A stretch of DNA of 64,000 nt from Clostridia bacterium (lineage in GTDB: Bacteria; Bacillota; Clostridia; Lachnospirales; Anaerotignaceae). This document shows, in pieces, positions 12,191-12,824 of this stretch; the first letter of the stretch is position 1; every line of letters begins with the position of its first letter. The position numbers and the translations under genes are program-made. The stretch is taken from NCBI GenBank assembly GCA_022651385.1, contig JALCQR010000001.1, positions 248,001 through 312,000 of the forward strand. Direction: 5' to 3'. A model generated the notes under the pieces. That model ran no database searches. It saw nothing but the letters and a program-made list of their open reading frames with translations, and was not told the origin of the DNA.

Positions 12191-12212
12191 TTTATTTTGA
12201 AAATTTTTATTA

Positions 12213-12245
12213 GCCCGGCATATAATAATGTCGGACTGTTTTTTA
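12213..12245 (+). terminator. Terminator after cysK
   Basis: CCGGCAT (12215-12221) pairs with ATGTCGG (12228-12234) around ATAATA. A run of six T's lies at 12239-12244. Confidence 0.75.
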
Positions 12246-12284
12246 AATTCTCGGCTCCTAATTTAAAATGGGGAGGTAATAAAC

Positions 12285-12824
12285 ATAAAGCATATTCCTG
12301 ATATACTTACATTTTCAAGAATTATAGCTGTTTTTTTATTGATTTTTGTAAAACCGATGTCCTATGCATTTTTCACAATATATTCTTTTTGCGGGATAAC
12401 AGATATTTTGGACGGGTATATAGCAAGAAAAATGAATTGCACAACTTTTAAAGGAGCTGTGTTTGACAGTATTGCGGACTTTTTATTTTTTGTAACAATG
12501 CTTGTTATATTTTTACCTATTATAAAAAGAGAAAAATGGGCGATTATTTGGATAGTAATTATAATATTTGTACGCTTTAGTTCAATTTTAATTGGTTTTA
12601 TTAAATATCACAAAATTTCTTTTTTGCATACAATATTGAATAAAATAACAGGTTTTGCATTATTCTTATTTCCGTTTATATATATAACTTTCAATTTTAA
12701 AATATCGGTATTTGTTTTATGTGTGTTGGCAAGCATATCTGCAGTGGAAGAACTAATTATAATAATTAAATCAAAAATTTTAAATCTAAATATAAAAAGT
12801 ATTTTTGAAATAATAAAACAGTAA
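12285..12824 (+). CDS. CDP-alcohol phosphatidyltransferase family protein, apparent ATA start
   Basis: A membrane enzyme that swaps CMP on a CDP-alcohol for another alcohol in phospholipid synthesis (PgsA/cardiolipin-type family). The full signature D-x2-DG-x2-AR-x8-G-x3-D-x3-D is present (from DILDGYIAR to GAVFDSIAD), followed by four or five TM helices. Homologues typically start MKxIPxILTxSRI. Here that conserved opening (KHIPDILTFSRI) is encoded from position 12288. It is preceded by ATA at 12285, with GGGGAGG at 12270-12276 exactly eight bases away. No ATG, GTG or TTG exists between the upstream in-frame TAA (12264) and TTG 12339, which would cut off the first helix. The substrate is not assignable. 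Confidence 0.8.
   Translation: MKHIPDILTFSRIIAVFLLIFVKPMSYAFFTIYSFCGITDILDGYIARKMNCTTFKGAVFDSIADFLFFVTMLVIFLPIIKREKWAIIWIVIIIFVRFSSILIGFIKYHKISFLHTILNKITGFALFLFPFIYITFNFKISVFVLCVLASISAVEELIIIIKSKILNLNIKSIFEIIKQ

Follow-up and report, generated by a model that had tools for sequence, protein, structure and literature searches.

Non-canonical start codons are disfavoured by initiation factor IF3, and infC is itself autoregulated by IF3. In Escherichia coli, pcnB has an AUU start that is inefficient and limits expression. In Staphylococcus aureus, a study that used Ribo-Ret to map starts and reporters to test them names AUA starts for infC, ccpN and citZ and extended Shine-Dalgarno (SD) sequences for infC, ccpN and cvfC1 (PMC13009471). 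The ccpN, citZ and cvfC1 reporters are given there as producing about 10% of AUG output (for ccpN, as much as 30% in rich medium), and the ccpN start as conserved between S. aureus and Bacillus subtilis (PMC13009471). In Streptomyces the GTC start of sigR is described as IF3-repressed, shown with mutants (PMC5472188), and codon-anticodon strength at the third base is reported to be monitored by IF3 (PMC10158994). IF3-discriminated start codons are known in few bacterial genes, and ordinary ORF calling misses such starts. Here we describe a gene for a CDP-alcohol phosphatidyltransferase in a 64,000-nucleotide stretch from the genome of a gut-type Clostridia bacterium (the window, meaning the whole stretch analysed), which probably has a genuine but weak, IF3-discriminated AUA start at 12285 that limits expression; we put the probability of this reading at about 0.82.

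The candidate start and its surroundings

From 12264 onward the forward strand reads TAA AAT GGG GAG GTA ATA AAC ATA AAG CAT ATT CCT, and after the stop the frame translates as NGEVIN-I-KHIPDILTFSRI, running to a stop codon that ends at 12824. The preliminary description had placed an ATA eight bases after a strong GGGGAGG and had found no ATG, GTG or TTG in frame between the upstream stop and a TTG further on; the coordinates bear out the spacing (8 nt, TAATAAAC) and the frame is free of all three codons over that interval (Table 1). The TTG, which is the first in-frame canonical codon, corresponds to residue 18 when Lys 12288 is counted as residue 1. When the 63 window frames of at least 100 codons were screened, four had no NTG preceded by an SD early in the frame. 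Of those four, this gene alone places an ATA, ATC or ATT behind a strong SD (-12.1 kcal/mol), a layout that exceeds chance in the window scan. An out-of-frame mini-ORF (ATG GGG AGG TAA, 12268-12279) overlaps the SD of the AUA start, which is probably a chance occurrence because an equivalent is absent in most of the other ATA/ATC orthologs.

Table 1. Features at and around the candidate AUA start, in window coordinates.
Feature	Position	Strand	Remarks
Probable promoter, TTGAAA, 18-nt spacer, TATAAT	12197..12226	+	consensus scan, 11/12 matches; by itself not functional evidence
Terminator-like hairpin of upstream cysK, then T run	12215..12234	+	fold, TATAAT in loop region
In-frame stop TAA	12264..12266	+	opens frame
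Shine-Dalgarno GGGGAGG	12270..12276	+	duplex TGGGGAGGTA, -12.1 kcal/mol
ATA, probable start codon	12285..12287	+	aligned to ortholog ATG/GTG/TTG/ATA/ATC starts
CDP-alcohol phosphatidyltransferase gene	12285..12824	+	179 codons including start; PF01066, AlphaFold2 model, fold match
Arg11 codon	12318..12320	+	invariant in alignments of 34 and 26 rows; lost with TTG 12339 start
First in-frame canonical codon TTG, rejected as start	12339..12341	+	would remove helix 1 (residues 3-19)

The upstream gene is cysK (TIGR01139, 366.6 bits, above cut-off), whose stop lies 94 nt before the ATA, and the downstream neighbour, on the opposite strand, encodes a QueF-type preQ1 synthase. The interval 12205-12245 folds at -10.7 kcal/mol (z -3.1), and the -10 TATAAT of the promoter-like sequence sits inside the cysK terminator-like hairpin (the two together span 12197-12234), so that a single element may terminate one transcript and start the next; given this overlap, the gene is probably transcribed alone. 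Translational coupling was rejected as a general account because of the gap to cysK with the hairpin between, and because the other ATA/ATC orthologs lie 22-217 nt from the nearest upstream same-strand frame. Sequestration of the SD by RNA structure was also rejected, the folds being ordinary (z 0.14 and 0.50), and no Rfam family was found in the region apart from one sub-threshold chance match.

The product belongs to the CDP-alcohol phosphatidyltransferases, as had been proposed, and is an accessory member, with a match to PF01066 at an E-value of 4.3e-20 (73.1 bits vs a gathering score of 22). Its reading frame is intact and carries DGxxAR...G...D...D, which we take to be the catalytic motif of the PF01066 CDP-alcohol phosphatidyltransferases; D39, D42, G43, A46, R47, G56, D60 and D64 show no or almost no variation among the orthologs. 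Scores fall far under the cut-offs of the named NCBIfam members. The AlphaFold2 model, built from a 26-row alignment, has a pLDDT of 90, with helix 1 predicted at residues 3-19 counted from Lys 12288, and Arg11 is invariant in 34 of 34 aligned ortholog rows. The protein resembles PgsA in its PF01066 domain, the six long helices of the model and the closest solved fold (PgsA 7drj, E 8e-4, TM 0.65), and differs from it in missing the TIGR00560 (PgsA) cut-off (40.6 bits vs 109.1), the genuine pgsA being a separate gene elsewhere in the genome (TIGR00560, 181.3 bits).

Start codons across orthologs and control families

Start codons were compared at codon 0, the ortholog position aligned to the window ATA. 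The set held 119 distinct orthologs including the window gene, one of them truncated (L087), which left 118 usable. Duplicates (L065, L070, L072, L073, L074, L161) and low scorers (L202, L207) were removed and L130 was left unclassified; from one listing of 80 loci, L061-L091 and L130 were used, and L092-L140 except L130, being weaker or partial matches, were left out. Further matches (G233, G158, G193 and nine rows of another listing) lie outside the ortholog set. The ortholog in G070 (L032) is identical to L065 of Anaerotignum neopropionicum, and the family of the window organism appears to include Anaerotignum. The gene is patchy: at E 1e-15, 13 of the 58 genomes of the family have it.

The claim that the conserved N-terminus is read directly after the ATA agrees with the orthologs, which align a start codon there: codon 0 is canonical in 54 of 118 (ATG 41, TTG 8, GTG 5), including an ATG after GAGGTGG in 7/7 rows of one genus (g17) of the same family. 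A nearby canonical codon serves as the start in a further 33/118 and in 4 more despite ATA or ATC at codon 0, and 11/118 have only canonical candidates with weak SDs. Every ortholog has at least one candidate in the interval from codon -15 to +8 (class F is empty), so none required a start equivalent to the TTG; a TTG start in relatives was what the preliminary description had named as counting against the ATA. The AUH class took in rows whose codon 0 was ATA, ATC or ATT behind an SD of -5 kcal/mol or stronger, provided that no canonical codon reached the same SD threshold. This gave 16 rows, from which L055 (ATT) was dropped as it has in-frame ATGs, leaving 15/118 (8 ATA, 7 ATC): the window gene, L044, L057, L061, L063, L064, L066, L067, L088, L141, L143, L147, L162, L192 and L203. 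In five of these (class A: ATA in the window and L162, ATC in L088, L141 and L143) the frame is devoid of NTG from its upstream stop through codon +8; in the other ten (class B) an in-frame GTG or TTG exists, often within the SD. As the SD cut-off was varied from -4 to -7 kcal/mol class A stayed at five, and the ATA and ATC rows of class B numbered 8, 10, 9 and 8. The window gene would therefore count among AUH starts by its sequence layout, with an AUH codon at the family start position behind an SD and canonical starts absent from its vicinity.

The SD energy at codon 0 has a median of -8.8 in the 15 ATA/ATC rows vs -8.0 for the 41 ATG starts, a difference that is not significant (p 0.30), and a stronger SD as general compensation at ATA/ATC starts was rejected on that ground. 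ATT is absent at codon 0 in the 15 AUH orthologs, rows that are not independent, though it is the commonest internal Ile codon of the same genes (152/359). L141 has an out-of-frame ATG ten bases before its ATC, so this row, which was kept in the counts, could reflect a one-base assembly error.

The background rate was taken from two control families, pgsA and infC. The identical start test returned 0/30 AUH for pgsA among genomes carrying the family (30 of the 56 rows listed), with NTG at position 0 in 29/30 and an ATG two codons upstream in the other, and 22/30 AUH for infC (30 of the 51 rows listed), with ATT in 19/22; eight infC rows fall outside class B, and in several of them a one-codon offset from the query is visible. 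A Fisher test of the family against pgsA gave p 0.04, a modest value from rows that are not independent. In the window genome's own infC (L256) an ATT start follows AGGAGGTG / AGGAGGTGCTGAGCT, and infC of most relatives likewise starts with ATT.

A quick tree, with SH-aLRT support only and many open forks, shows the ATA/ATC rows clustering in several parts of the family. L061, L162 and L192 form a clade in which all have ATA (support 99), L063, L064 and L067 one with ATA, ATC and ATA (support 97), and L141 and L143, both ATC, group with L045 (support 100). L044, L147 and L057 lie within one group, and L203, L066, L088 and the window are separate. The 15 rows need 10 tree changes; of 300 label shuffles none needed fewer than 12, and the mean was 14.4. 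For pairs inside each of the first three clades protein identity is 59-91% and dS about 0.16-1.4, and the dN/dS of about 0.15-0.34 indicates that the genes are maintained. The non-canonical start is conserved within the L061/L162/L192, L063/L064/L067 and L141/L143 clades; the window's own genus is one genome in the compared set. L141, L143 and L045 belong to a single genus, and where the first two have ATC at codon 0, L045 reads ATG ATC ATC, so that a canonical codon two triplets upstream has apparently been gained or lost.

Alternative readings

The start picked by mechanical ORF calling is TTG 12339, which would give a 161-aa protein. Such a start is hardly credible: the codon is without a good SD (the best early NTG energy of the frame, -4.1, belongs to another TTG), all orthologs offered a possible start close to the family position, and TTG 12339 was rejected on structure and conservation, since the shorter product would lose predicted helix 1, as had been argued, together with invariant Arg11. 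The relatives might instead truly start at an in-frame GTG or TTG three to five codons upstream, leaving the window nearly a lone oddity. Codons of this kind are present in 10 of the 15 ATA/ATC rows, and the SD motif GAGGTGA itself includes a GTG. Their own SDs are poor, however: in the 10 rows of class B the SD of the best upstream NTG is far weaker than those at ATG starts (Mann-Whitney p 1e-5). Such codons are absent in L162, L141, L143 and L088, infC of the relatives falls into the same classes, and an in-frame GTG at -3 is likewise present in L069 and L178, which start with ATG. We consider this reading unlikely. As for a sequencing or assembly error, with G the true base at 12287, ATA is one base from ATG, but independent assemblies have ATA or ATC at codon 0 (for example L192, in a one-contig genome of 99% completeness) and the window genome, in 19 contigs, has a listed completeness of 99.88%, which makes an error very improbable.

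A recent ATG-to-ATA mutation in the lineage or strain, lowering the expression of a dispensable gene so that ATA is tolerated rather than selected, was the alternative named in the preliminary description. ATG is the commonest codon 0 (41/118), the distribution of the gene is patchy, the ATA is documented in a single genome of its genus, and natural start-codon variants of this type are reported, for example in rpoS of E. coli O104:H4 (PMC12864459). Against it stand the 14 other orthologs with ATA or ATC, kept in three clades over the dS range given above, a window SD stronger than those of 39 of the 41 ATG-start orthologs, and the intact frame with its conserved catalytic residues. As a general account it is the less likely one, ATA/ATC being recurrent and kept in clades. 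A private change could have occurred in the window lineage, as the ATA there rests on one assembly with no congener and L071, the row closest to it at 55% identity, apparently starts at an in-frame ATG that lies five codons upstream; overall we regard a recent mutation as distinctly unlikely.

Initiation at ATA 12285 is well supported by the ortholog start position, the strong and well-spaced SD, the need for helix 1 and the 14 other ATA/ATC orthologs, in agreement with the start that had been proposed. Recurrence of the unusual start in other members of the family makes the case stronger than first put forward, and AUA or AUC in several distant relatives suggests a start that is weak by design and not the product of a sequencing error. 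The strong SD would keep the mRNA on the 30S subunit, where initiator tRNA would read AUA with a third-position mismatch to give an fMet N-terminus; IF3 would disfavour such complexes, keeping output low, and output may rise at low IF3 activity, as for infC, pcnB and ccpN. The data show the position of the codon, its SD, its conservation and purifying selection acting on the encoded proteins; from these we infer that translation does begin at the AUA at 12285, that IF3 acts on it and that low output is its selected purpose. Selection of the weak start is probable given that ATA/ATC recurs and is kept in several clades, and retention points the same way since ATG, one transition away, should initiate far better.

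Comparison with known non-canonical starts

The CDP-alcohol phosphatidyltransferases would add a new gene family to a kind of start that is already known, and a search of the open literature (titles and abstract beginnings, with most subscription journals outside it) found no report of non-canonical starts in them. A family with many interconversions of NTG and AUA/AUC is a natural setting for comparative work on the reason for selecting a weak start and on whether IF3 control extends beyond infC. It is conceivable, if doubtful, that accessory CDP-alcohol phosphatidyltransferases of Bacillota have repeatedly evolved and kept AUA/AUC (apparently not AUU) and form an IF3-sensing regulon with infC, linking head-group synthesis to translation initiation.

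The window gene is like infC in having an AUH start, a strong SD and no SD-supported canonical alternative, the infC of the same genome starting with ATT. The two differ in codon, infC using mostly ATT (19/22) and this family ATA or ATC (ATT 0/15), and in that IF3 autoregulation is documented for infC, whereas the window gene is known from its sequence. The AUA or AUU starts described for ccpN, citZ and cvfC1 of S. aureus are likewise from Bacillota; those starts were mapped experimentally, while the window gene encodes a membrane phospholipid-head-group transferase read from sequence. With the AUU of pcnB and the GTC of sigR it would share an inefficient start that limits an otherwise ordinary gene, although codons, genes and phyla are different and IF3 repression of sigR is reported from mutants. 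Against this background, an AUA codon behind a strong SD in a functional-looking enzyme fits low, IF3-sensitive output, which is the best-supported mechanism for the window gene.
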